Source: a virus
Virus record (IMG/VR): IMGVR_UViG_3300037427_001973
Coordinates: 1-29,349 of that record
Length of the DNA: 29,349 nt
Strand: one strand, 5' to 3'
Both the position numbers and the translations under genes were made by a program. Below, piece after piece: positions 1 through 21,909 of the stretch; the stretch's first letter is position 1, and each line of letters opens with the position of its first letter. The notes beneath the pieces were generated by a model. The model was not told where the DNA came from. It ran no database searches and saw nothing but the letters and a program-made list of their open reading frames with translations.

Positions 1-1799
1 ATATCAAAATTAAGATTTCCACCCTTTGAATCCTTTTCAAGAATTTCATCAATTTGGTTTTGTACTAATGGGTCCATTTCATCATACAACTCTTCAACAA
101 AATCTGAATAGTCTAAAGTGGTAAAGAACTCCGAACTATTTATACAAGTCATGATTAAATCATCATTACCTAATTGACCTGCATATGATCCATTTGGTAG
201 CTTACCAAAGGTTGAAGATTCTTTTACTGTATCCTTATCATAAATTCTTATTTTGTTTTGAGTAATATATTTTTTGAAGTTTTGACAAAAAATAGGTTTA
301 TTATCTTTCTTTACTTTTAAACCAAATTGTTTAGTTCTAGCATCTACTCTGTGTTTAAACTTAACTACACTTTCTTCATCAAAATTATTTCTTTGAGGAA
401 ATACAGTTTCCATTCTTTTTATAAGTTCTCCACCAAACATATTCCATTCAATAATAAGTTTAACATTTTCAGAGTAAAATAAATCAAATCCTAAAATATA
501 AAGTGTTTTAGCAAATTCTTCAATAGTATGTGAATTACTTCTAAACCTTCCTATTTGTCTAATACCAAAAAAATCTACAAAACTCCCAGGTGTTGTTACA
601 CCCTTCCAATCTTCTTTATCTAGCATTTTTATTTGAAAGATATTAATTACAGAATAATCACCACCTGTACCTTCTGCTATATCTACAGAAAATACCCAAT
701 AATTATAATCTTCTTCTATTTCATCAAGATTAAAATTAGGATGCCATAATAAACCAGAATAATCAATTTCTGCTTCATCAAAATCAGGAATTTCTTTATG
801 AACAAATTCTACTTGACCGCTTACTAGTTTCTTTAAATTTGCGGCACTTAATAATAATGAAGAATTAGCAATAAATTGATTTCCATATTGTCTATTAAAT
901 GCTTCATCACTTCCTAAGTTGGCAACTTCTTGTTTCATCCATGCATCATCTCTCCCAGGTACATCCCACCAATCTACTCGGAATGGTGTATATTCACTTA
1001 ATCCTTTATCAGCAGCTGTATAGATGTCATAGAACTTATTAAATCCATTTGGTGTACTAGTTATAATTACTTTTGAATTTGCTGATGCGGATACGGTAGG
1101 ATATACGTTTTCATAAAAAGTATTTACAAAGTTTGCAGGTATATGTGCAAACTCATCCATAAATAATAAATGAATAGTAAAACCAATTGCTGCTTTCTTT
1201 GTGGTTGTCTGACCTATGATTCTACAACCATTATCAAATTTAGAATTAAACACATCCCATTTAAGAGTACCAGGCTTGATAAAGAAAGGTAAGTGTTCTA
1301 ATATAGTTTTACCTTTATCAATAATTTCTCTTGTTGTAGCACCCTTATTTGAAAGTATTAGCGAATTTTTATCAAAATTAAATACAGAATACCATGCAAT
1401 AAAAATAGATGAACATATTGTTTTACCAACTTGTCTACTTGCTAAACATATATTAAATCTTTCAGCTTGAAATTGCCTTAACATTTCTTCTTGATAAGGT
1501 CTTAATTTAATTGTCTGTAAACCTTCATCAGTCATTACAGTACAGTAGGTATTTGCAAAGTATACAATATCAGTTGCACACTTTTTAATTTCCTTTAATT
1601 CTTCAGGAGTATAATTAAATACAATATTACCTTTTCTTAAATTAGGATTCCCTTCATAGAAAGGTGTAGACTTTGGTTTATAACCTTCGTCTAATGCTAA
1701 CATTAATTGTTCAACCTTTTCTGAAGTCCATGCAAAAGACTCAGCACCTTTAGATACTTTAAATTCAAATCCTGCTGATTCTGCTTGTGGTCTAGGCAT
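1..1799 (-). CDS. 17: Terminase large subunit, gp17-like (3' end outside window)
   Basis: This is the ATP-driven motor and headful nuclease that packages phage DNA through the portal. About 599 codons are visible from ATG 1799, and the frame stays open to the window edge; T4 gp17 has 610 residues, so little is missing. The ATPase domain shows Walker A SRQVGKT (residues 121-127), Walker B LLFMDEF (211-217) and coupling motif TSTPNG (247-252). The RNase H-fold nuclease domain shows the acidic residues expected of the family: D373 in FSVDIAEG, E451 in IIEWN and D546/D547 in GNDDL. The start overlaps the stop of the upstream GroES-like gene by 8 nt (ATGCCTAG), so translational coupling is likely. 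The order gp16, GroES-like, gp17 differs from T4 only by the inserted gene. The identification is firm. Confidence 0.96.
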   Translation of the reverse strand, partial: MPRPQAESAGFEFKVSKGAESFAWTSEKVEQLMLALDEGYKPKSTPFYEGNPNLRKGNIVFNYTPEELKEIKKCATDIVYFANTYCTVMTDEGLQTIKLRPYQEEMLRQFQAERFNICLASRQVGKTICSSIFIAWYSVFNFDKNSLILSNKGATTREIIDKGKTILEHLPFFIKPGTLKWDVFNSKFDNGCRIIGQTTTKKAAIGFTIHLLFMDEFAHIPANFVNTFYENVYPTVSASANSKVIITSTPNGFNKFYDIYTAADKGLSEYTPFRVDWWDVPGRDDAWMKQEVANLGSDEAFNRQYGNQFIANSSLLLSAANLKKLVSGQVEFVHKEIPDFDEAEIDYSGLLWHPNFNLDEIEEDYNYWVFSVDIAEGTGGDYSVINIFQIKMLDKEDWKGVTTPGSFVDFFGIRQIGRFRSNSHTIEEFAKTLYILGFDLFYSENVKLIIEWNMFGGELIKRMETVFPQRNNFDEESVVKFKHRVDARTKQFGLKVKKDNKPIFCQNFKKYITQNKIRIYDKDTVKESSTFGKLPNGSYAGQLGNDDLIMTCINSSEFFTTLDYSDFVEELYDEMDPLVQNQIDEILEKDSKGGNLNFD

Positions 1800-2040
1800 C
1801 TTCTTCTATAATAGCAAATACGTGGTTTTTATGAATAGCTTCAAATTCTACATCATTTAAAGTTACCATTGTACCTTTGCCCATATTTTTTAATATTACA
1901 GCACCTGTTTTGATTTCATCACAACCACTTTCAATAACCTTAGCTACACGATTATGTTTAGGTGGAGGAATAATTAATCCACTTGGTGTTGTAGTTTCTT
2001 TTTGTTTAATTTCTTGAATTAACAAGTAATTATTCTTCAT
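1792..2040 (-). CDS. GroES/Cpn10-like co-chaperonin
   Basis: An 82-residue protein with the layout of GroES. A short N-terminal strand (NYLLIQEI) is followed by a glycine/threonine-rich segment ending in SGLIIPP, which matches the GroES mobile loop whose hydrophobic tripeptide (IVL in E. coli) docks on GroEL. A barrel segment with a GTMVTLND turn follows, then a C-terminal strand FAIIEE equivalent to GroES LAIVE. In T4, gp31 plays this role for folding gp23, so a similar role is inferred. I chose ATG 2040 because it places the first strand as in GroES. ATG codons at 2046 and 2058 are in frame and would add 2 or 6 residues. It overlaps gp16 by 11 nt and gp17 by 8 nt. Its position between the terminase genes is unusual. 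Confidence 0.78.
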   Translation of the reverse strand: MKNNYLLIQEIKQKETTTPSGLIIPPPKHNRVAKVIESGCDEIKTGAVILKNMGKGTMVTLNDVEFEAIHKNHVFAIIEEDA

Positions 2041-2638
2041 TTTCATTGCTATCGACATCTTCTATATCTTCTTCTTTAATTGTATCTTGTAAAGCTCTCA
2101 TTAAATCTTTCGTTCCTCTTGACTTAATACCACTTTGTTTATTGGATCTTGAATTTTCTGTAGTATGATAAACATCAACATCACGAGATATCTTTTTAGC
2201 ATTTTCTTCAATAGCTACCATATACATTGTTTGACTTTTAATAATATCTAAAAGAGTTCTTTGTAAATCACTAAGTACTTCAAACATTCTTGGTGATACA
2301 TCACCTTCATGAATTGTTTCCATTAATAAGGTAATAGCGGTTTCACTATTTTGCATTTGTCTTATTAACATAGATAATGCAGATTCATCTAATGCAGCTT
2401 TTGCTCTAATGTATTCATGTTCTGCAATAATATCTTCACTTAAATAAAAAGTTAATAAACTATTCATTACAGATTCAGCTTTTTGTTTAGCTTTAACTAA
2501 AGCAGCACTCTGTCCACTATCTACTCTCAAAGGTTGTAATTCTTCAGAATTATTTTCTAAACCTTCTACTTCATCAGGTAGATCATTTAAGAGATCTCCT
2601 AAACTATCACGAAATTTATCTTTCGATTCTTCTTTCAT
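2030..2638 (-). CDS. 16: Terminase small subunit, gp16-like
   Basis: A 202-residue acidic, helix-rich protein. The central part (about residues 55-150) is predicted coiled-coil. A segment starting SPRMFEVLSDLQ lines up with the T4 gp16 segment SPRHMEVFATLM and the helix after it, at a similar position. gp16 forms a ring that recognises DNA and stimulates the gp17 ATPase. The N-terminus is strongly acidic, and the C-terminus ends in a Glu/Asp-rich tail as in many small terminases. T4 gp16 is 164 residues, so this version is somewhat longer. Location just upstream of gp17, with only a GroES-like gene between, supports the call. A promoter-like element lies 11 nt upstream of the start codon. Confidence 0.8.
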   Translation of the reverse strand: MKEESKDKFRDSLGDLLNDLPDEVEGLENNSEELQPLRVDSGQSAALVKAKQKAESVMNSLLTFYLSEDIIAEHEYIRAKAALDESALSMLIRQMQNSETAITLLMETIHEGDVSPRMFEVLSDLQRTLLDIIKSQTMYMVAIEENAKKISRDVDVYHTTENSRSNKQSGIKSRGTKDLMRALQDTIKEEDIEDVDSNENEE

Positions 2639-11806: not shown

Positions 11807-12844
11807 TTACAGGTTTGGTCTTAATCTAGCAAATTTTTCAGAAACAGATTCAACTAAAGGAGTAAATGATTCTTTAGCAGCAGCTTTAGCTTTACGCTCA
11901 TCTTCAGCTTGTTTAGCTAATGCCTTTTTAGCATCTGCTTCTTTCTTTTTAAGTTCAGCAATATCTTCTTTGCTATCCTCTATTCTTTTTTCTATCTTTT
12001 GAACTTCTTCATCAGATACTCTACCTAACTTTTGATCTCTTTTAGCTTGTTCTAATTCTTTTTCTTTTTTATTAAGTTCGGTTCTTTCAGCTTCTATATT
12101 ATCATTGAATGCTTTAATATCCACTTCATAATTAATTTCTTCAGGATCTTTTTCATTTGGGCTAACATAATCCATTCTCCCAAACATACCATCATCATCT
12201 TTTTTCTTGTCATCCTTTTTTCCACCTTTATCTTCTTTGCCCTTTGCAGCAGCGGCATCAGCATCCTTTTTAAGTTCAGCTGTGGTTTTTCTTTCACCAT
12301 CATCGGTAGTTTTGCCAGTATCAGTTTTTGTATCTGTTGCTTTAGTTGTCTTTTTATCTTTTGCAGCTGCAACTTGATCAGGCGTTGCTTCATAATCAGC
12401 TAATGCTGTTTTTTGTTTAGTAGCTTTAGCTTCAAGTTCTTTTTCTTTAACTTTTAAAGTTTTCTTAATTTCTCCGGAAGCAGATTTTAATACTACTTTA
12501 TTAGCAGCAATTTTAGATTTAGTTTTTCCTAAAGAAACAACTTTCTTTAAACCATCAGTAGTTGCCAAATCATCCATTCTTTGTATAGTAAGATCTACGG
12601 TTTGGTCTATTGCTTTATTTTTAGCATCTTTGGCAAGTTCTAATTTCTTTCTTTGGTCTGGTGTTAATTCTCCTTTTGCTTTTTCTTTTTTCTTCGCATA
12701 GTCAACATCATTTAATGCTTGTGTTACCAATCCTTTTTGATACTTCTTCATATTGTTCTTAATCTTAGTATACTTAATAGGACTCTTAATTGCATCAATG
12801 ATTGCTTCATTGACAAATTCTTTATATGTTTTTAACTTTGCCAT
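11807..12844 (-). CDS. Lys/Glu-rich internal head protein with capsid-targeting sequence
   Basis: A 345-residue, highly charged, low-complexity protein. I chose ATG 12844: it follows a TATATAAA element, and the upstream in-frame extension would run through the gp23 terminator. The N-terminus contains KTYKEFVNEA (5-14), nearly the same as KTYQEFIAEA, the capsid-targeting sequence of T4 internal proteins IPI and IPIII, which gp21 cleaves after the Glu. Cleavage here would fall between E13 and A14. The body has long Lys/Ala/Asp/Glu tracts, a disordered middle (about 180-250) and a coiled coil (about 275-325). A role as a packaged core protein, binding DNA or ejected with it, is inferred. It lies directly downstream of gp23 and its terminator. 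Confidence 0.78.
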   Translation of the reverse strand: MAKLKTYKEFVNEAIIDAIKSPIKYTKIKNNMKKYQKGLVTQALNDVDYAKKKEKAKGELTPDQRKKLELAKDAKNKAIDQTVDLTIQRMDDLATTDGLKKVVSLGKTKSKIAANKVVLKSASGEIKKTLKVKEKELEAKATKQKTALADYEATPDQVAAAKDKKTTKATDTKTDTGKTTDDGERKTTAELKKDADAAAAKGKEDKGGKKDDKKKDDDGMFGRMDYVSPNEKDPEEINYEVDIKAFNDNIEAERTELNKKEKELEQAKRDQKLGRVSDEEVQKIEKRIEDSKEDIAELKKKEADAKKALAKQAEDERKAKAAAKESFTPLVESVSEKFARLRPNL

Positions 12845-12884: not shown

Positions 12885-12911
12885 AAAAAAGCCACTCCGA
12901 AGAGTGGCTTT
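12885..12911 (-). terminator. Intrinsic terminator after gp23
   Basis: The minus strand carries AAAGCCACTC, a TTCG loop, GAGTGGCTTT and then more T (six T in total at 12885-12890). The ten-base-pair stem is perfect, capped by a stable UUCG tetraloop. It begins 26 nt after the gp23 stop, and would end the very abundant capsid mRNA before the next gene. Confidence 0.93.
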
Positions 12912-12936
12912 CTATATAAAGTATTATTGTTACTTA

Positions 12937-14820
12937 TTAGATAAGTGAACAACCAGTGAACGTAAAGTTCATTGTGTAATACATTAATTCAGGATTGAAT
13001 CCAGCATCTACTAAAGCGAATCTAGATTTAACCGCAATTTTAGGAGCCATAGTTCCTTCTGCGATTGTCTCAACAGATTCAGCCATTAAGTAAGGCATGA
13101 ATACTAAACCAGGAGAGTTACCATCACCTTTTCTTCCTACACAGATTGTATAGTCATTAAAAGCTCTGTTTGGATCAACATAAACAGTTACCCCAGCGAT
13201 CGCACCGATTGGATATAAAGATCCACCAGCTTGATTAACTGTATTTGATAACGGATATGCAACGAATCCAGCAACTGATTGAAGAGCAGTAGCCATTTCT
13301 CCACCTGTTACAGCGAAGGTAGCTGGTCCTCTTCTACCTCTAGTAGCAATTAAGTTACTTGCAGCAAGAATCTTAGTGTAGACTCTTCTCTGTAAAGTAC
13401 CTTGAGTATTACCACCACCTAGTACGTTAGTCTGTACTGGGAATGCAGCCAAGAATGCACCTGTCGTTAAAATACCATTACCAGTGTTATTCGCACCTAA
13501 TGTAATAGCAGCACCGGCCTGTGCAGCCTGTCCGTTGAATTGCTCAGATAATGAAGTACCGTTTACGTTACCAATATTGATAGTGTTAGTTACACCATTT
13601 CTGAAAATTCTATCCAAGATATACTTGTTGATAGATTGAGTTAACTCATTAACTAATACAGCCTCAACTTGAGCAACAGCATCAATTCCGAATTGCTTCA
13701 GATCTTGAACTTGTTCTCTAGTTACAGCAGCAGCAACTTGGAAAGTTTCAGCAGCTACAGACTTGTTGAATAAGCTAAGTCCCATAATGTTATCAACAGT
13801 TGATTCACCTACACCTCTTTGGTAAGGATCTAAACCGTTAGCATTCTGGTTAGCGAATTGTGGTCCGCCAGTAGCAGGATCATTCGCTGGTTGGAAAGCA
13901 TTACCAGAGAAACCAGTAATATGGTCTTCTAGAGCTTTTACTAAACCTAAGTTAGGAGTAGCACCTACAGTTGCAACAATGTTACCTGCAACTATTACAG
14001 CAGCTAATGCTGGTCTAACACCACCTACTCTTGCAAGTCCGTGAAGTCTTGCACCAGCAGTAATAGAGTTATAAATAGTTGAAGCAGCAGTTTCAGCACC
14101 TTGTGCATAGTTAAATCCACTGTTTACAGTAGAACCAGCAACAGGAGCAGCACCAGGAGCAACAATAGTTGCAGTAGTGTTACCTCTTACTCTGAATATT
14201 GGTAAACCGTCAATTCTTGAAGTTCCAACAAAAGTTAATTCGTAAGAAGCAGCAACAGTGTTACCAGCAACCGGAGTTACAGCAGCAGCAGATGAGTTAA
14301 ATTGATCTGCATAGTAAAGGTCATTTACTGCAAAAGCAGAAGCATCATCGTTAGTTGCTGAAAACTTGATCATTAATGGAGCAGCAGTAGTATCAAGGTT
14401 ACCATTTACAGGTGCACCTGATCCTCTACCTCCACCGTATACAAAGTCTAGGTAAGTTAAAACTCCCATAGGGCCTTGCATTGGTACTACAGGAACTAAG
14501 TCTAAACCTACAGTCTGTGCAGCTACTTGCATTGCAAGTGGTAGCAAAGAAAAAGGTCTGTCTCCAGATCCAGCAGCTTGTGCTGGGAAAGCATTCATTG
14601 ATCCAGGGTTTCCTGGCAATGTAACGTTACCCATACTTTGAACATTCATGTTCGGGTTAAGGTGTACAGTATTGTAAACACTCTCATTAAGGTTGTGGTA
14701 GTGACAGTACTTAGACATCCAAGCTAACTTAGATTTTTCAGTTATGCCAGTACTTTCCTCAATAACAGGTCCCCAAGTCTTTTGAACCTCAGCCTCGTTG
14801 ATTAATTGATTTGCGTACAT
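12937..14820 (-). CDS. 23: Major capsid protein, gp23-like
   Basis: A 627-residue HK97-fold capsid protein. The N-terminal half has the gp23 features KTWGPVIEE (14-22), SKLAWMSKYC, and LLPLAMQVAAQTVGLDLVPV leading to VPMQGPMGVLTYLDFVYG. This corresponds to T4 VGVQPMNGPTGQVFALRAVY. The C-terminal half has the usual LKQFGIDAVAQVEAVLVNEL, LATRGRRGPATF and GDGNSPGLVFMPYL segments. T4 gp23 has 521 residues; the extra length looks like Ala/Gly/Thr-rich sequence around 150-330, probably a surface insertion domain. LINEA at 7-11 could be the gp21 cleavage site, leaving a very short propeptide compared with 65 residues in T4. Codons look less AT-rich than in neighbours, as expected for high expression. 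A strong terminator follows. Confidence 0.95.
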   Translation of the reverse strand: MYANQLINEAEVQKTWGPVIEESTGITEKSKLAWMSKYCHYHNLNESVYNTVHLNPNMNVQSMGNVTLPGNPGSMNAFPAQAAGSGDRPFSLLPLAMQVAAQTVGLDLVPVVPMQGPMGVLTYLDFVYGGGRGSGAPVNGNLDTTAAPLMIKFSATNDDASAFAVNDLYYADQFNSSAAAVTPVAGNTVAASYELTFVGTSRIDGLPIFRVRGNTTATIVAPGAAPVAGSTVNSGFNYAQGAETAASTIYNSITAGARLHGLARVGGVRPALAAVIVAGNIVATVGATPNLGLVKALEDHITGFSGNAFQPANDPATGGPQFANQNANGLDPYQRGVGESTVDNIMGLSLFNKSVAAETFQVAAAVTREQVQDLKQFGIDAVAQVEAVLVNELTQSINKYILDRIFRNGVTNTINIGNVNGTSLSEQFNGQAAQAGAAITLGANNTGNGILTTGAFLAAFPVQTNVLGGGNTQGTLQRRVYTKILAASNLIATRGRRGPATFAVTGGEMATALQSVAGFVAYPLSNTVNQAGGSLYPIGAIAGVTVYVDPNRAFNDYTICVGRKGDGNSPGLVFMPYLMAESVETIAEGTMAPKIAVKSRFALVDAGFNPELMYYTMNFTFTGCSLI

Positions 14821-14924: not shown

Positions 14925-16793
14925 TTATCTACCTAATCTGTGTTTCATTTTTTCGACTAAATCATTTTTAAAAGATTCATTTAATAATGGCTCTTTTTTC
15001 ACAGCAGCCTCAGCAGCTGTTTTACTTTCATTAATCGCTTGTAAATTCATTTGAGTATCTCTCATATCTCTTGTTTGCCAGAAATTATTAATGGCATAAG
15101 GAGTATTTAGAGAATGGAATTTAGATTCAGCAATAATTTGTTCCTTTCTGTTTTCTGAAAGAGTTTCCCATTTAGAAACATATTTTTCTGGCATATCATT
15201 AATAAAGTTAATTGCCTTTCTTTCAGTTATAAAACATGAGTCCCAAACATTTTCTGCTTGTACAGTTGACATAATAGAATCTTTATTCATTGATTCAACT
15301 ATTAAAGTTTTCTTGCTTTCATCTAGAGAATCAAATTGATTCTTTTTAGATTCAGATAAGAAATTCATAAAGTGCATTTCATTAACAGACTTAGCTTCTG
15401 CTTTAGAAATTAAATCATTTAATTTTTCACTTATAGATTCTTTGTAAGATTTCATTTCTTTCATACATGCTTCGCAGTATTCTTTTATCTTACCTTTATC
15501 AGCATCAGGATATTTTTCACAAATTGCTTCATACTTCATACCTTCATCCATACACTTTTTAACTTCTTCCATTGTTGGAGTGTATCCTTCGCTCATTTTC
15601 TTTGCAACAGCATCGGCAGCCATTGCACGACCAACAGCAGCAACTGCTGGAGCAACTTCAGAGATCTCTTTACTTTCATTAATAGATTCTCCTTTAGTAG
15701 CTAATACATTTTCTGCAATGTATTCAGAATACTTAATGCTATTATTTAAATTTTCTGCTACATATTCTGAATAAGCAATATTTTGATCTACCTTTTCAGC
15801 AACATATTCAGAATATTTAATTCCTTTATCTAAGCTTTCTCCTAAGTAATTAGAATATTCAATTCCTTTGTCTGCTTGTTCAGCAACATGCTCAGTATAT
15901 TGAATGGAGTTATCTAATTCTTCACCTAAGTAAGAAGCATAATTTTTAATTTTATCTATATTCTCTGCTAAGTAGTCAGAGTGAGATATACTCTTGTCAA
16001 GATTTTCAGATAAGTATTCAGTATAATCAGTAACTTGATTTACTTTTTCTGCAATATGCTCAGTATATTTAACTAGCTTTTCAATTAACTCATCGTTATT
16101 AGAATTTGCAGATTCCTTAACACTATCCAATGTATTCTTTACATATTCAGTGTACTTATTAAAATCTTCAACAGTTACAAATTTGTCTGATGTATTTTCC
16201 ATTGTTAGATCTGTTTTATTTGTTTTATTTATTTCTTCTTCAGAGTTACCCATTTCATAAATGTATAAACCTTCAGTATTTTCAAAACCAAATGATTCAT
16301 TAACTCTAGCTAATTCTGCATTTTCAAATCCAGGATCAGCAACTAAATCGTATGTAAAGAATTTTTTAATTTTTACCTTTCCTGCTTCATCAACAGTTCC
16401 AGCTGCTCTACTTGAAATATGTAATGGAATACCATCCTCTATTAATGCTTGAGCTTCTTTACCTTTTGAAGTATTTAATAACCTAATTCTTCCTAGTACT
16501 TGTTTCTTATTGCTATCATAATCTAAATCTTCAATAACATGAGAAACATTTGATAGACTAATATCAAAATCTTTTGGGTGGTCAAGTTCACCTAATAGTT
16601 TATTAGTTTTTACCTTTTCCTTTAATTCGTTAATATGAGGAAGTACTTCGGCTTCTTCATAAATTCTGTTGTTTTTATTCTTTACTCCAATCTCTGTAAA
16701 TACACCTTCAAGTACGACAGAGCCATCGGCATCTTTGGTCATACTTAAATTTGACTTAGATCTTTCTAGAATTAAAAGTTTCTTATTAGACAT
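14925..16793 (-). CDS. 21: Prohead protease gp21 fused to a scaffold (gp22-like) domain
   Basis: A 622-residue fusion. Residues 1-170 are the T4 gp21-type serine protease: GVFTEIGVKNKNNRIYEE, LLGELDHP with the presumed catalytic H72, SNVSHVIEDL, then IPLHISSRAAG with the presumed nucleophile S127 or S128, and FFTYDLVADPGF. T4 gp21 alone is 212 residues. From about 200 to 365 there is a long helical part with exact 14-residue repeats, then an acidic/Lys helical region to the C-terminus KMKHRLGR, resembling a prohead core scaffold. In T4 gp21 and gp22 are separate adjacent genes before 23; here both roles appear in one chain. Several V/I/L-N-E-S sites (164-167, 371-374, 587-590, 604-607) could be self-cleavage points that release protease and degrade scaffold. 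Confidence 0.88.
   Translation of the reverse strand: MSNKKLLILERSKSNLSMTKDADGSVVLEGVFTEIGVKNKNNRIYEEAEVLPHINELKEKVKTNKLLGELDHPKDFDISLSNVSHVIEDLDYDSNKKQVLGRIRLLNTSKGKEAQALIEDGIPLHISSRAAGTVDEAGKVKIKKFFTYDLVADPGFENAELARVNESFGFENTEGLYIYEMGNSEEEINKTNKTDLTMENTSDKFVTVEDFNKYTEYVKNTLDSVKESANSNNDELIEKLVKYTEHIAEKVNQVTDYTEYLSENLDKSISHSDYLAENIDKIKNYASYLGEELDNSIQYTEHVAEQADKGIEYSNYLGESLDKGIKYSEYVAEKVDQNIAYSEYVAENLNNSIKYSEYIAENVLATKGESINESKEISEVAPAVAAVGRAMAADAVAKKMSEGYTPTMEEVKKCMDEGMKYEAICEKYPDADKGKIKEYCEACMKEMKSYKESISEKLNDLISKAEAKSVNEMHFMNFLSESKKNQFDSLDESKKTLIVESMNKDSIMSTVQAENVWDSCFITERKAINFINDMPEKYVSKWETLSENRKEQIIAESKFHSLNTPYAINNFWQTRDMRDTQMNLQAINESKTAAEAAVKKEPLLNESFKNDLVEKMKHRLGR
15708..16067 (-). repeat. 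Tandem 14-residue (42-nt) repeats in the scaffold domain
   Basis: Eight complete 14-residue units and a partial ninth start at residues 243, 257, 271, 285, 299, 313, 327, 341 and 355 of the fusion protein. The consensus is Y-S/T-E-Y-V/L-A-E-x-L/V-D-x-S/G-I-x. The first residue is Tyr in all but one unit (His at 271). The spacing has no insertions, so this is a regular helical rod built by duplication. DNA copies have diverged but remain visible as attTCWGMATA-like blocks. Confidence 0.9.
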
Positions 16794-16838: not shown

Positions 16839-18485
16839 TTAGATATCAGCTAATGGGTCTTCATCCATTCCATCAGATTTTTCTTCAGGCTTAAAATCAT
16901 CTTTATTAGCCCCTAAAAGAATCTTTTCAATATCTTCTTCTCTATAACCTGCTTTTTGCAGTTCTTCACGCTCTTTTGCACGAGCATTAGCTTTTATATC
17001 ATCACGGGTAAATCCACCATATCTCTTAATTAAGAATCCTAAATCAAAATATGGTATTTCTTCCATATCAGGTCCCATTGTGCTTAATTGTGTTTTTAGA
17101 TTACCTATAAAATCAACACGTTTAGTTTGAAGTTCCATCTCTTTCATTTCTTCAAATACATTATCCTTAATAAAATCTAAACCTAAACCTGCCTTAAATG
17201 CAACATCATTTTTTAACTCTGGGTGGTTAAGACACATTTGAAGATATACAGGTTTAACTAATACTTCTTGCCATATTGATCTTAATCTTGCAATAAATCT
17301 ACCAAATTTAATTTCATCTCTTAACATACCACTTGCCTCCATATCATATGTATTACCACCTTCTCTATCAAATCGTGAAAATGGAATTTTAGAAGCTAAT
17401 TGTAATTTATCAGAAAAATACTTTAAAGATTCAGTATCACCTAAATCAGGACCGTCACCACCAATAGTTGTAATTTCAGGAGTTTCACCATCTTTAGATG
17501 GTAACCAGTATTCCTTGTTAAACGGCATCATTGGCTTTCCATTGGTTTGAATCTCACCACTCTCAAAATTAAAGTCTACAACCTCACGATATGAGTTCAT
17601 TAAAGTAGCTAAAGATTGTTTTGCTCTGGTTTTTGATTTACCACCAACTGGTATTGTAAACTGAGTTTTAAATGAAGCATTTGATACAGCCCAGATAATT
17701 CTACTATGTTCCATAATTCTTAAAAGATTAAAAGATCTTATTAATCTTTCTACATAAGATATTCTCATTGGTGAATTAACAGAAGAATAAGAAATATAAA
17801 TTATTTGAGAATCCCATAGCTTTCTTTCTTTTGCACCTTCTCCTTTATACTGTATCCAAACTTTTTTACCATCATCGGTATCAATACCTGGCATTAATGA
17901 AATAGGATCTAATTCTTTAAAACCAATAATTTCAGTTTGCTTATCATTATAAACAATCTCAAAGGCAAGAAAACCATCAATTAACCATTTTCTAAAATAA
18001 TTCCAAGGAGCTACAGCATCATTAAAACCAAAGTAGTTATAGATATTATTATAAACATCTGCAATTTCTTCTTCAATTGATTCACCAATATGACCATTAA
18101 ATTCTGCATATGCCATATAATTGGATTCATCATATACAATAGCTTCATCTGTTAATACATCTAAAATATCTTCTATTTCATCTTGAACTGCAAAGGTTCT
18201 TAATTGGTCACGCTTTCTTGTATAATCTTGATCGAAAAACGCAATGTTTTTCTTCATGTTAGTATCAGTTAATGATAATGCTGCAAATGCACCATACATA
18301 TCATCACTGTCTGAGCCCATAGGATTAAAAGTATAACCCATCTGGTTTTCAGTATAACCAACAGCTCTAGAATTACGAATGATCATATCATCGTATGCCA
18401 TTCCTAAATTAGAAAGATCTTTAAGAATTTTTCTAACGGGATTTCCTGTACTTAAAGGTCCTCTTCTATCTGTAAAACCTGCCAT
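16839..18485 (-). CDS. 20: Portal protein, gp20-like
   Basis: A 548-residue portal (T4 gp20 has 524). Twelve copies form the vertex through which DNA enters and leaves, and it nucleates prohead assembly. Family features are RTFAVQDEIEDILDVLTDEAIV (about 96-117), the wing domain with KELDPISLMPG, an ARG-free VNSPMRISYVERLIRSFN segment followed by RIMEHSRIIWAVSNA, and then LATLMNSYREVVDFN. EYWLPSKDG, ITTIGGDGPDLGDTESLKYF and SKIPFSRFDRE follow, as in T4-like portals. The C-terminus is acidic and disordered. It begins 19 nt after the preceding gene and lies directly before the protease-scaffold gene, as in T4 (20, 21, 22, 23). Confidence 0.95.
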   Translation of the reverse strand: MAGFTDRRGPLSTGNPVRKILKDLSNLGMAYDDMIIRNSRAVGYTENQMGYTFNPMGSDSDDMYGAFAALSLTDTNMKKNIAFFDQDYTRKRDQLRTFAVQDEIEDILDVLTDEAIVYDESNYMAYAEFNGHIGESIEEEIADVYNNIYNYFGFNDAVAPWNYFRKWLIDGFLAFEIVYNDKQTEIIGFKELDPISLMPGIDTDDGKKVWIQYKGEGAKERKLWDSQIIYISYSSVNSPMRISYVERLIRSFNLLRIMEHSRIIWAVSNASFKTQFTIPVGGKSKTRAKQSLATLMNSYREVVDFNFESGEIQTNGKPMMPFNKEYWLPSKDGETPEITTIGGDGPDLGDTESLKYFSDKLQLASKIPFSRFDREGGNTYDMEASGMLRDEIKFGRFIARLRSIWQEVLVKPVYLQMCLNHPELKNDVAFKAGLGLDFIKDNVFEEMKEMELQTKRVDFIGNLKTQLSTMGPDMEEIPYFDLGFLIKRYGGFTRDDIKANARAKEREELQKAGYREEDIEKILLGANKDDFKPEEKSDGMDEDPLADI

Positions 18486-18498
18486 ATTTTTATTTTTT

Positions 18499-18511
18499 AT
18501 TAGTTTATATA
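18499..18511 (-). promoter_or_regulatory. Late-promoter-like element before portal gene
   Basis: The minus strand reads TATATAAACTAAT, 13 nt before the portal ATG. It overlaps the stop codon of the preceding gene. The core and spacing match the elements before the protease-scaffold, 627-residue and holin-like genes. Confidence 0.45.
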
Positions 18512-19077
18512 TTCTTGTAGTATAATGATTGTGCTTGGTTTATATTTCCTCCATAAAAATTATCTTCATTATTCACAGTACCCATATAATAATCTTCATA
18601 ACCAATCACTATAGGATTCTTCATTTTACTCATTATGTATTGTCGTGTACAATAAGTTAAGTTATATTTTTTACCTAATGCTCTTTTTAAAAATTCCCAT
18701 TTAAACGTGGTGATAGGAGCCTGATTGAGTGTATCTATTTCAACAGCATTTTTAAAATCAGGAAACCTCATAAAGTTTTTAGCTATTTCTTTCATAAAAG
18801 GAACTCTAGCTTCATAAGGCATATAGTGTAAATTTATACCTAGTTGGTGTTCATTATCAGATTCACCTAATCCTAACACTAAAGGTTTAGTATCATAAAA
18901 AGCCTCATCTTTAGTATAATATTCAAAAGAATACATTTTTCCAGGTTCTAATTCACCTTTACTACGTGCACCTACTATAGGAATATCTATTTCTGATTGT
19001 TTAGATGCAATCGTCCTACTTCTATATTCAGCTAAGTATAATTTAAGATCTTCATTATATTCTCCAATAAAAGCCAT
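18505..19077 (-). CDS. Unknown T4-like accessory protein (190 aa) between gp4 and gp20
   Basis: A 190-residue soluble protein. The centre has GKMYSFEYYTKDEAFYDTKP, then LVLGLGESDNEHQ and LGINLHYMPYEAR (about 77-90). This pattern of a beta-rich domain ending in L-G-I/L-N-L-H-Y-L/M is one I associate with uncharacterised T4-like phage proteins, but I cannot attach a name or function. The C-terminus is Asn/Tyr-rich and probably disordered. The ATG overlaps the gp4 stop by 1 nt (TAATG), so it is likely translated together with gp4. Position between head completion nuclease and portal suggests a head or tail assembly role (T4 has 53 next to 4), which is inference. Confidence 0.75.
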   Translation of the reverse strand: MAFIGEYNEDLKLYLAEYRSRTIASKQSEIDIPIVGARSKGELEPGKMYSFEYYTKDEAFYDTKPLVLGLGESDNEHQLGINLHYMPYEARVPFMKEIAKNFMRFPDFKNAVEIDTLNQAPITTFKWEFLKRALGKKYNLTYCTRQYIMSKMKNPIVIGYEDYYMGTVNNEDNFYGGNINQAQSLYYKNI

Positions 19078-19553
19078 TAAAATAGTTTTGAGTCTTCAGT
19101 TAATAACATTACTTTACAATTTCTTTCTTTTGCCATTTTATTAAGAGCATTAGTTTTACATAAATTTCTTACATAAGATTCATATGCATGTTTAAAGTTT
19201 TTTAATGCTTTAGCTGTTTTTCTTTTTGGTTCTTTTGGTTTTTGTAATTGAGCCTTAGGTTTTATTTCTACTACATATTCTACAAACTCTTCTCCTTTTT
19301 TCATTTTTATAAAAAAATCTGGATAATATTTATGAAACTTATTATCCAAAAGATTAAAATAAGGTATTGAGAAAGGTTCTGATATCCAGTAAACCACATC
19401 TTCATTATGATCACACCAATGACAAAATTTTCTTTCCCAGCTACTTCTGTATATAATAGGACCTTCTCCTCTATATTTTTGAGGAAATTTTGGTTTATAA
19501 TAACCTTGCTTAAATCCTGATTTTACAGTAGGCTTTACCTTCTTTATACTCAT
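19077..19553 (-). CDS. 4: Head completion nuclease, gp4-like
   Basis: A 158-residue basic protein equal in length to T4 gp4 (150). The N-terminus has KPKFPQKYRGEGPIIYRSSW followed by ERKFCHWCD (about 20-48), matching T4 gp4 KYKPKHPEKYKGN and the YRSxWERKF motif. A PD-(D/E)xK-like core follows: YPDFFIKMK with the Asp, then VVEIKPKAQ with the E-x-K pair (about 84-105). The Lys-rich middle would contact DNA. gp4 acts after packaging to finish heads before tail joining. It lies 8 nt downstream of gp55 and overlaps the next gene by 1 nt. Confidence 0.9.
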   Translation of the reverse strand: MSIKKVKPTVKSGFKQGYYKPKFPQKYRGEGPIIYRSSWERKFCHWCDHNEDVVYWISEPFSIPYFNLLDNKFHKYYPDFFIKMKKGEEFVEYVVEIKPKAQLQKPKEPKRKTAKALKNFKHAYESYVRNLCKTNALNKMAKERNCKVMLLTEDSKLF

Positions 19554-19561
19554 TTAACATT

Positions 19562-19927
19562 TTATATTGTATAGATGCCTTCACTATCAGCACTTCCATT
19601 AATTGAAACTGTGCCATGATATTTCTTAGGATGTAATTTATTCCATCCTTTTGCAAATCCTCTTTTTGCTATTTCAGTAAAATAAGCAAATGCATTAGTA
19701 CTTTTTTCTGGATTAAAATTTCTCCAATATCTATAAAGATCCATATAAGCATAAGCAATACAATCTTGCCTATCTTCTGGATTTCTGTATGTTAATTTTC
19801 TAGAACACTTATCAGCCAACAACATTAAAAATTCTAACGCTTTAGGTGTTAATTCACCTGCTTCTTTTGAAATAATGATCTGCTCTAACAAATCTCTATT
19901 ATTTAAGTAATTTCTTTTTCTTGCCAT
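19562..19927 (-). CDS. 55: Late-transcription sigma factor, gp55-like
   Basis: A 121-residue protein from ATG 19927; an earlier in-frame ATG at 19957 would begin inside the terminator, so I reject it. T4 gp55 (185 residues) is the minimal sigma that directs RNA polymerase to TATAAATA promoters with gp33 and gp45. The N-terminus KRNYLNNRDLLEQIIISKE parallels T4 gp55 KYNYVNNKELLQAIIDWK. The region 2-like middle RQDCIAYAYMDLYRYWRNFN then NAFAYFTEIAKRGF parallels T4 ADGIEASIKGLHNFD and NPHAYITQACFNAF. It is shorter at the C-terminus, where T4 gp55 carries its clamp-binding end, so clamp-dependent activation may differ. It opens the head gene group and precedes gp4. Confidence 0.83.
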   Translation of the reverse strand: MARKRNYLNNRDLLEQIIISKEAGELTPKALEFLMLLADKCSRKLTYRNPEDRQDCIAYAYMDLYRYWRNFNPEKSTNAFAYFTEIAKRGFAKGWNKLHPKKYHGTVSINGSADSEGIYTI

Positions 19928-19939
19928 CAGCTTTGATTT

Positions 19940-19954
19940 ATTTATTATTATATA
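19940..19954 (-). promoter_or_regulatory. TATATAAT element before gp55
   Basis: The minus strand reads TATATAATAATAAAT between the terminator of the 627-residue gene and the gp55 ATG, ending 12 nt from the start. A promoter is expected right here because transcription from upstream should stop. Confidence 0.45.
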
Positions 19955-19955
19955 C

Positions 19956-19991
19956 AAAAAAGGACCGATTGTTTAATATTCAACCGGTCCT
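19956..19991 (-). terminator. Intrinsic terminator after the 627-residue gene
   Basis: The minus strand has AGGACCGGTTG, a nine-base loop AATATTAAA, CAATCGGTCCT and a T run. The stem pairs over 11 positions with one G-U. It lies 34 nt after the stop at 20026 and directly before the gp55 promoter-like element. Confidence 0.9.
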
Positions 19992-20025: not shown

Positions 20026-21909
20026 TTAGATCTTAACTTCTAAATCTTCTTTAGGAAGTACAATACTCTTTCCATTTTTAGGAACTATAATTGTTAATAA
20101 ATCATCATCACCTAGAGAAGCGTATTCTTCAGCATTAACTAATACTTCTTGTCTCTTTTTTAAACCTTGACCGTTCTTTTTAACAGATGCTTCTACAAAA
20201 CCATCATTTAAATAGTCGTCTTTAGTTTTTTTTTCAGAAATATATGAATCAGCTAATTCTTTTTCTTTTCCTTTTAACTCAGCTTCTAATAAATTTAGAG
20301 CTTCAGTTAATTCTTCAGTTTCGCCAATTTTATTAATAGTTGCTTTAACTTCTGCTTTCTTTTCTTCTAAAAATGAGATAGCATCAGAAATATCTTTTCT
20401 TTTATTTTCCTCAATTGCTTTTTCATTATCTTCAGCAATTAATCTTTCAGATAATAAAGAAGAAAGATCAAAGTTAACAAATTCTTTTACGATATCTACA
20501 GTTTCAGTAGCAGTATCATATTTCTTCATTTCATTTATTCCCATTCCTGGATTTACAGTGTTAACATAAATACCTTCGTCTAATGCAATTACACTTACAA
20601 ATACATCTTTATGTGCTTGTGATTGAATAGTTGTAAAGTTATCCATTTCAGCAAGTAAATCAACTGATTCAAAGAATTTGCAAATTTTATCATTTTGCCA
20701 CTGATTTCTATAACCTGAAAAATTAGTTGCTAATAAAGCTTCTTTTAATTCAATGATACTGTAATTAGTCATATCAACTTTACCCATTGATAATGTACCT
20801 TCAGCAATGTTATATTCTAAAGATTTACCATTTTCTCCATGTAAAGAAAGAATGTTTTCATTTCTTGAAAACATATCTATACCTTCACTTACATCAAAGA
20901 ATCTTGGATCAGTTACATTAGCTTCAGTAATATCAGCTCCATTAAAATTATAATTCTTTCCATGTAATCTAAATGTTAATCCATTTTCAGATTCTAAAAC
21001 TGGAGAAAGAACAGAAACAACTTTTCCGTTTGCAGTAGAAGCTACGTTTGTATCTTCAGCATTCATTTCATTTACTATTGCTTTACAATCCATTGACCAT
21101 GGGTTCTTAGCAGCAACAGCAGCAAATTTAGATTTTACATCTGATTCATTTAATAAAGATGTTAAATCATTTGTTAATGATTCCATTAGTTTTCCTTTCT
21201 GATAAGATACTCTATCAATAGATTCACTAATTCTATAACTCCATTTTGCTGAGTTATATGATTCCATAATATATTCTCTTAATTCAGAAACTGGCTGTAA
21301 CCAAGTATTAGCTCCTAATTTACTATATAAATTTCTAGCTATTTGGAATTTAAGATTAGGATTAGTTGCATTTTCTATTTCTTCACTAATTTGTGAAAGG
21401 TCAGCATTTTTTAATTTCATAGGGAATGCATTTATAGCCTCCTCTAAAATAGTTAAAGATTCCTTAACAGAATATGAAACTCTGGAACTATCATTGTCCA
21501 TAGCCTTTAAGCCGTTAATACTCTCCATAACGTTTTCATACAGATCTGTTAATGTAAAGTTCATTTTGTTATGATTTTTTTGATTATTATTTTCAGTGTA
21601 TATATCGGATTTGTCTTTGTGGTTTTCTAAATACTTAGCTATACCGACTTGAGCCATTGTTTGAGGAATACCCATCCCTACTAAAATAGTAAGTACTTGT
21701 TCTTTACTTATTGATCCACTATGGTCAATTTTAAAGTCATTGTCAATATCTGACATTCTACCGCTTTGGCTGAACAATACATGGATTATATCCATTAATT
21801 GTTGTGGAGGATTTTGTAAGTATTCTTGGTCCTGGTTTACACCAGCTTGGGATTCTACCCTACCATCAGCATATACTTGTGTTTGTCCTTCGTTCATTGT
21901 GTTTTCCAT
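20026..21909 (-). CDS. Large unknown protein, probable head/virion-associated
   Basis: A 627-residue protein I do not recognise. The Gln/Asn-rich N-terminus (1-115) includes DNDFKIDHSGSISKEQ (57-72), which resembles a degenerate EF-hand loop. An alternative in-frame ATG at residue 116 (MNFTLTDLYENVMESINGL) starts the compact part. The middle is helical then beta-rich (about 270-440). A coiled coil follows (about 490-560, EEKKAEVKATINKIGETEEL), and a Lys-rich C-terminal domain ends PKEDLEVKI. There are no membrane segments. It has a strong TATATAAAACAAAT element upstream and its own terminator, so it is a separate, probably late, transcript. LLNES at 252-256 resembles the putative gp21 cleavage motif in neighbouring head proteins. 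A core or structural role is inferred only. Confidence 0.7.
   Translation of the reverse strand: MENTMNEGQTQVYADGRVESQAGVNQDQEYLQNPPQQLMDIIHVLFSQSGRMSDIDNDFKIDHSGSISKEQVLTILVGMGIPQTMAQVGIAKYLENHKDKSDIYTENNNQKNHNKMNFTLTDLYENVMESINGLKAMDNDSSRVSYSVKESLTILEEAINAFPMKLKNADLSQISEEIENATNPNLKFQIARNLYSKLGANTWLQPVSELREYIMESYNSAKWSYRISESIDRVSYQKGKLMESLTNDLTSLLNESDVKSKFAAVAAKNPWSMDCKAIVNEMNAEDTNVASTANGKVVSVLSPVLESENGLTFRLHGKNYNFNGADITEANVTDPRFFDVSEGIDMFSRNENILSLHGENGKSLEYNIAEGTLSMGKVDMTNYSIIELKEALLATNFSGYRNQWQNDKICKFFESVDLLAEMDNFTTIQSQAHKDVFVSVIALDEGIYVNTVNPGMGINEMKKYDTATETVDIVKEFVNFDLSSLLSERLIAEDNEKAIEENKRKDISDAISFLEEKKAEVKATINKIGETEELTEALNLLEAELKGKEKELADSYISEKKTKDDYLNDGFVEASVKKNGQGLKKRQEVLVNAEEYASLGDDDLLTIIVPKNGKSIVLPKEDLEVKI

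Follow-up and report, generated by a model that had tools for sequence, protein, structure and literature searches.

A T4-type capsid-targeting-like leader on a putative prohead-core protein encoded after gp23 in a T4-like phage

The tagged protein and its head-gene neighbourhood

The protein encoded directly after the major capsid gene in this viral DNA begins with a leader that is strongly supported by comparative sequence as a T4-type capsid-targeting sequence. We favour, with reasonable confidence, the reading that the protein is a constitutive prohead-core or internal protein trimmed at Glu13 by a gp21-like protease. In T4 IPIII, residues 4 and 7 are needed for targeting and residues 8 and 10 for processing, and T4 gp21 cuts after L/I-X-E (PMC9026906). 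The targeting reading draws on the invariant Tyr, Phe and Glu at the corresponding T4 positions, the N-terminal enrichment of the motif in relatives and an array of repeats in the scaffold. The initial annotation had proposed a capsid-targeted, packaged protein; its targeting part is what the comparative evidence sustains, while we infer packaging and cleavage from T4.

The window (the whole stretch of 29,349 nucleotides analysed here) holds one tagged protein only. Its open reading frame (11807-12844, minus strand) has an ATG start and encodes 345 aa, beginning MAKLKTYKEFVNEAIIDAIKSPIKYTKIKNN; the capsid-targeting-like leader, MAKLKTYKEFVNE, occupies residues 1-13 (12806..12844, minus strand), and its stretch MAKLKTYKEFVNEA includes Y7, F10 and E13. 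Residues 5-14, KTYKEFVNEA, had already been likened to the T4 decamer KTYQEFIAEA, and they indeed rank first against it among the 8,623 decamers of the window proteins (7/10 identities; runner-up 5/10), with two scaffold repeats among the next-best matches. The chance expectation of a 7/10 match is ~9e-5, calculated by composition for the first 12 start positions of 28 proteins. The T4 decamer had been attributed to IPI and IPIII, which is correct for IPIII, but IPI starts MKTFKEFTSTTTPVSTITE|A; in NC_000866, the decamer belongs to IPII and IPIII.

The putative removal point lies after Glu13 (VNE|A, the bar marking cleavage), giving the leader form MAKLKTYKEFVNE|A, as judged from the alignment and from T4 mutational data. 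The site form V/I-N-E|A/G/S/N is one residue off the strict T4 L/I-X-E, P3 here being Val, and a gp21-type protease gene is present in the window. A candidate second cleavage point is placed near the C-terminus at the Glu332-Ser333 codons (PLVE|S; 11846..11851, minus strand), within the conserved tail ESFTPLVE|SVSEKFARL.

The protein contains 20.9% Lys, 10.1% Glu and 10.1% Asp, in agreement with its first description as Lys/Glu-rich, and the mature form has a pI of ~9.2 and a net charge of +15 over residues 14-162. The AlphaFold2 model (overall pLDDT 69, pTM 0.40) predicts a helix at residues 7-20, a helical domain at ~22-152 (pLDDT mostly 80-92), a disordered linker at ~164-236, a helical hairpin at 239-325 and a short helix at 334-341. 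The body had been called disordered, which agrees with the prediction for residues 164-236 but not with the confidently predicted helical domain at 22-152. The protein had no significant match in Pfam, among solved structures or in a viral fold library, and its body had none in PHROG or Pfam and did not match the mature parts of T4 internal proteins. A relationship of the tail to the gp21-gp22 C-terminus was considered and dropped, as the profile scan was unsupportive.

The protein resembles T4 IPI, IPII and IPIII in its short N-terminal leader of the form aromatic-x-x-Phe-aliphatic-x-Glu|Ala, its head-gene context with a gp21-type protease, its basic pI and the occurrence of unrelated bodies behind one leader. 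Unlike the T4 proteins, which have about 100-190 aa, it has 345 aa with a coiled coil and a disordered linker; its gene lies directly after gp23, and its leader of 13 residues has 3 extra residues before the motif.

The window carries a T4-like head cluster with genes for a gp55-like sigma factor, a head-closure protein, a gp2-like DNA end protector, the portal, a gp21-gp22 fusion and gp23. The gp23-like major capsid protein (627 aa; 12937..14820, minus strand) is encoded immediately upstream of the tagged gene, which confirms the initial placement of the gene directly after gp23; within the 92-bp gap, a terminator-like hairpin was assigned by consensus match only (12886..12913, minus strand). 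Next come the fused gp21-like head maturation protease and gp22-like scaffold (622 aa; 14925..16793, minus strand; phrog_207, 5.1e-36), the gp20-like portal protein 45 bp before it (16839..18485, minus strand) and a gp55-like late sigma factor assigned by family match (19562..19957, minus strand). Because only 45 bp separate the portal and gp21-gp22 genes, the window has no gp67/gp68-like gene there. The window gp23 shares 52.6% identity with its counterpart in megaphage LR756500 (462 kb) and roughly one third with its counterparts in Lak phages and Tenacibaculum phage PTm1, and the source is thus probably a jumbo-type T4-like phage of Bacteroidota.

Several further features lie in the window. 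The gp2-like DNA end protector (18505-19077, minus strand) starts ..EDLKLYLAEYRS, a tag-like N-terminus with similar forms in G001 and G004. The gp21-gp22 fusion has MSNKKLLILE|R at its start and LLNE|SFKNDLVEKMKHRLGR at its end; the two termini are largely conserved, are of the protease-site type and resemble suspected autocleavage sites of T4 gp21. A 627-aa protein encoded between the late sigma factor and tail-sheath-stabiliser genes (20026-21909, minus strand) has an internal MNFTLTDLYENVMES and no PHROG match, and a GroES-like 88-aa protein (gp31-type; 1792-2058, minus strand) was recognised by inspection only.

Conservation of the leader, the body and the gene order

A scan of viral contigs recovered 36 loci related to the tagged gene. 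In an alignment of 19 full-length members, with homologs 46-58% identical to the window protein, the body is conserved and large parts of the linker are variable, and no residue ahead of position 22 is invariant except Y7, F10 and E13, which by spacing correspond to T4 positions 4 and 7 (targeting) and 10 (cleavage). The leader as a whole keeps the T4-type pattern of Y7, F10, V/I11 and E13 (aromatic 4, Phe 7, aliphatic 8 and Glu 10 in T4 numbering). Across 36 distinct DNA sequences of the leader, the Tyr, Phe and Glu codons show synonymous variation, suggesting selection at the protein level. Thirty-two of the 37 distinct leaders joined to a conserved body fit [YF]xx[FY][ILVM]xE, and the remaining 5 depart from the canonical spacing. 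Additionally, the mature start NIGAALGS is preceded by two different leaders, MRKVKSYDEFVNE and MKLLSFEGYKMLNESSKAFEADLDKTLNE, exactly at NE|, which puts the module boundary at the putative scissile Glu.

Wherever a contig of the 36-locus set covers the region, the gene order is gp23, tagged gene and clamp loader. In a gp23-anchored search, 70 neighbourhoods were checked, of which 65 were testable in that the contig did not end too soon; the canonical tagged ORF adjoins gp23 in 49 of the 65, and several of the other 16 encode the body of the tagged protein either with a variant leader or beyond inserted genes. The homologs in G006 and G007 occupy the equivalent slot after one inserted gene, have neither the canonical leader nor the tail, and are similar mainly in the coiled coil (69% identity over ~60 residues). 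The tagged protein evolves fast, with 43-54% identity where the portal has 86-98%. A tblastn search against named phages with the low-complexity filter on gave no match, and a family profile found no homolog in ten named relatives, LR756500 and Lak among them. In the 5,209-bp contig L004, gp23 is followed by the tagged gene twice in tandem, with one copy shortened, which may be an assembly artefact.

The tag on other proteins of related phages

The tag is borne by many proteins in relatives of the window phage. The initial annotation had suggested looking for proteins that start with the same decamer in other distant T4-like phages, and versions of the tag were found at the N-termini of many proteins. 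It had also regarded the short signal as conserved despite the divergence of gp21 and gp23; the similarity of the decamer holds, but as one instance of a clade-wide tag and not as an isolated survival. Related contigs and megaphages carry the tag on 5-22 mostly unrelated proteins each, with p down to 1e-32. Observed versus expected counts of [YF]xx[FY][ILVM]xE at residues 3-9 were 20 versus 0.23 in G021, 22 versus 1.2 in LR756500, 22 versus 1.9 in LR756502 and 12 versus 0.4 in G006; in the window-clade contigs G023 and G024, they were 5 versus 0.48 and 6 versus 0.50 (reading-frame test). A fixed-motif count showed no enrichment of other tagged genes in G001, G003 and G004, and the N-terminal motif was not enriched in PTm1. 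The controls, cyanophage P-SSM2 and Pelagibacter phage HTVC008M, had no tag cluster, although P-SSM2 nonetheless has 3 N-terminal matches versus 0.39 expected.

Clustering of N-termini without any T4 motif, with another stretch of the same proteins as the control, gave 31 similar pairs versus 1 in G006, 66 versus 2 in PAU, 340 versus 20 in LR756500 and 1130 versus 21 in LR756502, and in T4 it returned one cluster with IPII, IPIII and 61.1. In the T4 positive control, MKT[YF].EF selects ipI, ipII, ipIII and 61.1 only; gene 61.1 (18966-19130) encodes a 54-aa hypothetical protein with the tag-like start MKTFKEFIKE. The bodies behind the tags are mostly unrelated by blastp (19 families among 19 in PAU, 8 among 9 in G006, and 17 among 24, including an eight-member family, in LR756500), and unrelated mature parts behind a shared leader are also seen in the window-clade G023 and G024. 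In 65 pooled tags, Asn fills the free position ahead of Glu 38 times, and Ala is the commonest residue following it. The degenerate DNA pattern K.KTY.[EQ]F[VI]NE, searched free of position, matched 53 stretches in 2.9 million viral contigs, and the instances that were recovered lie at or adjoining an ORF start on several different bodies; four entries have no in-frame Met just upstream as parsed, the match starting <=5 residues from a stop codon. A broad DNA pattern did no better than its reversed control in 11 window-clade contigs, for which the reading-frame test alone was informative.

Some relatives use their own leader dialects. In LR756502 (642 kb), the leader MKHLKTYKIFES or MKHLKKYNES is common to >80 mostly small proteins, a dialect unlike that of T4, and many of these proteins have a recurring ..DILLELxDDGF segment; the pattern behind this list was loose, and some members are false (e.g., a tRNA synthetase). 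In Sphingomonas phage PAU (NC_019521), MKTLxxLYEAKLNEA-type leaders stand on 19 unrelated proteins at 9-201 kb, most around head genes. Two of these, gp142 and gp154, are annotated as internal capsid protein on an unstated basis. They are like the window protein in having a short leader common to unrelated proteins around head genes, and unlike it in their dialect, MKTLTQLYEAKLNEA, and their unrelated bodies. PAU and most of LR756502 misfit the strict motif and cluster only by their own dialects, and we take them as supporting and not primary evidence. N-termini that direct proteins into the capsid or are removed by the prohead protease include the packaging signal of P1 DarB and the propeptides of phiKZ/SPN3US ejection proteins (PMC9024508, PMC5694885); unlike the present leader, these are longer, from 20-30 to >100 residues, and the likeness is drawn at the level of description.

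Among tagged cargo, the Pfam families whose matches pass the curated cut-off include Acb1 (G021, LR756502), LRR (LR756500), DUF5824 (G021, G024), YheC/D-type ATP-grasp (G024, G026) and DUF5856 (G024). The tagged Acb1-like 2H phosphoesterases (L253:2454-3020, plus strand, in G021; L168:13773-14312, minus strand, in LR756502) are possible pre-packaged anti-CBASS enzymes. LR756500 has at least five tagged leucine-rich-repeat proteins, e.g., L077:13446-14282 (plus strand) and L086:18758-19531 (minus strand). One G006 tagged protein was read as ADP-ribosyltransferase-like, but this match (KptA family, E 0.023) fell below the cut-off and the reading was rejected. The slot of gp67/gp68, between the portal and gp21 genes, also contains tagged small proteins (L058 of G006, 15668-15928, minus strand; L181:1465-1809, minus strand), and the L181 protein and a G006 neighbour have a common body behind different leader dialects.

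Scaffold repeats, alternative roles and implications

The leader may imitate one repeat of the scaffold and thereby join the core, as we propose from the gp21-gp22 sequence. Nine 14-residue repeats, Y[ST]E[YH][VIL][AS]E.. (15705..16067, minus strand), lie in tandem in the scaffold half of the fusion, with heptad starts running from residue 243 to residue 355; units such as YTEYLSENLDKSIS and YSEYVAEKVDQNIA share the leader's spacing of aromatic-x-x-aromatic-aliphatic-x-Glu. With His allowed as an aromatic, the heptad motif occurs 10 times in gp21-gp22 versus 4 times in the window's other 7,987 residues, the leader being one of the 4, and nearly every one of 20 gp21-gp22 homologs has an identical count. 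The scaffolds of G006 and LR756502 have 10 and 12 copies, compared with 2 in the runner-up protein. Scoring with a repeat PSSM places the leader heptad 9th of 7,831, which is suggestive only, and the structure model of gp21-gp22 is of low confidence (pLDDT 52). Unlike the present scaffold, T4 gp22 contains no such repeats by motif count, and thus the docking proposal is not transferable from T4.

Other roles for the protein were weighed against that of a constitutive core or internal protein. It is unlikely to be an ejected effector, packaged by the tag and acting in the new host like T4 IPI or Alt. T4 internal proteins with such a tag are injected (PMC9026906, PMC12373910), other tagged proteins in relatives are effector-like (the Acb1-like proteins of G021 and LR756502), and the protein's fast evolution would suit this role. 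However, the gene keeps a constant gp23-to-clamp-loader slot across the clade, unlike the scattered and variable tagged genes, and its coiled-coil, low-complexity product matches no enzyme or inhibitor family in family and fold searches. This near-constancy within the head cluster weakens the effector role raised in the initial annotation. Homolog charges likewise count against the other function suggested there, a histone-like, DNA-binding condenser packaged with the genome: the G006/G007 sister clade keeps the coiled-coil body at a net charge of -28 (pI 4.7), and close homologs range from +16 to +2, several being near neutral. A condenser is improbable on these grounds, despite the pI of 9.2, the +15 in residues 14-162 and the 21% Lys of the window protein and the DNA contacts made by Lys of T4 internal proteins (PMC3012670).

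There is also a slim chance that the protein is a transient scaffold component of the gp67/gp68/gp22 type, degraded in maturation. Like those T4 prohead-core proteins, it is encoded in the head cluster, is helical and highly charged, and would be part of the core in the proposed model; the window has no gp67/gp68-like gene between portal and gp21, a slot occupied by tagged small proteins in G006 and L181, and the coiled coil also fits. Unlike them, it has no sequence match in the family libraries, its gene follows gp23 whereas theirs precede it in T4, and it has few internal cleavage motifs. The [LIV]xE context is found at 5 of the 35 Glu residues in its 345 aa (13, 134, 297, 332 and 336) versus 26 of 55 in the 433-aa scaffold part, and end trimming thus fits better than degradation. 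That packaging is argued from T4, and that the main LR756502 dialect MKHLKTYKIFES differs from T4's, would leave a little room for another localisation or regulatory signal common to many proteins of these phages. We consider such a signal very improbable given the exact match to T4 targeting and processing positions, the T4 control, the scaffold repeats, and the clustering of PAU tagged genes around head genes, two of them annotated as internal capsid protein.

For the core or internal protein that we favour, Tyr7 and Phe10 would dock the leader onto the assembling core, with the like-spaced 14-residue repeats arrayed in the gp22-like half as the putative partner. After shell closure, the gp21-like protease would cut behind Glu13, and perhaps Glu332 also, freeing a basic, largely helical mature protein that may be retained in the head. 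In related phages, the same tag would recruit variable cargo.

The packaging of varied proteins by T4-like phages via capsid-targeting sequences, and the use of the signal to find ip genes, are already published (PMC9026906, PMC12373910); the reach of the tag into this phage group and its link to the scaffold were not found in the papers searched, all of them open-licence in PubMed Central. Tentatively, and with rather less assurance than even odds would give, we propose that in Bacteroidota-type T4-like jumbo phages and megaphages the tag is a one-unit mimic of the 14-residue scaffold repeat, and that clade-specific dialects load tens of different proteins into each head for delivery with the DNA, among them anti-defence enzymes of the Acb1-like phosphoesterase kind. 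Imitation of a scaffold repeat is a concrete, checkable idea for how capsid-targeting sequences bind the core. If true, the delivery of an anti-CBASS enzyme at infection would be a new timing for counter-defence. Searching for the tag gives a way of listing the proteins that these viruses are likely to bring into the cell; as a short, sequence-readable signal with a role proven in T4, the tag would yield, from the mostly unannotated genes of huge phages, a testable set of proteins carried in the virion.
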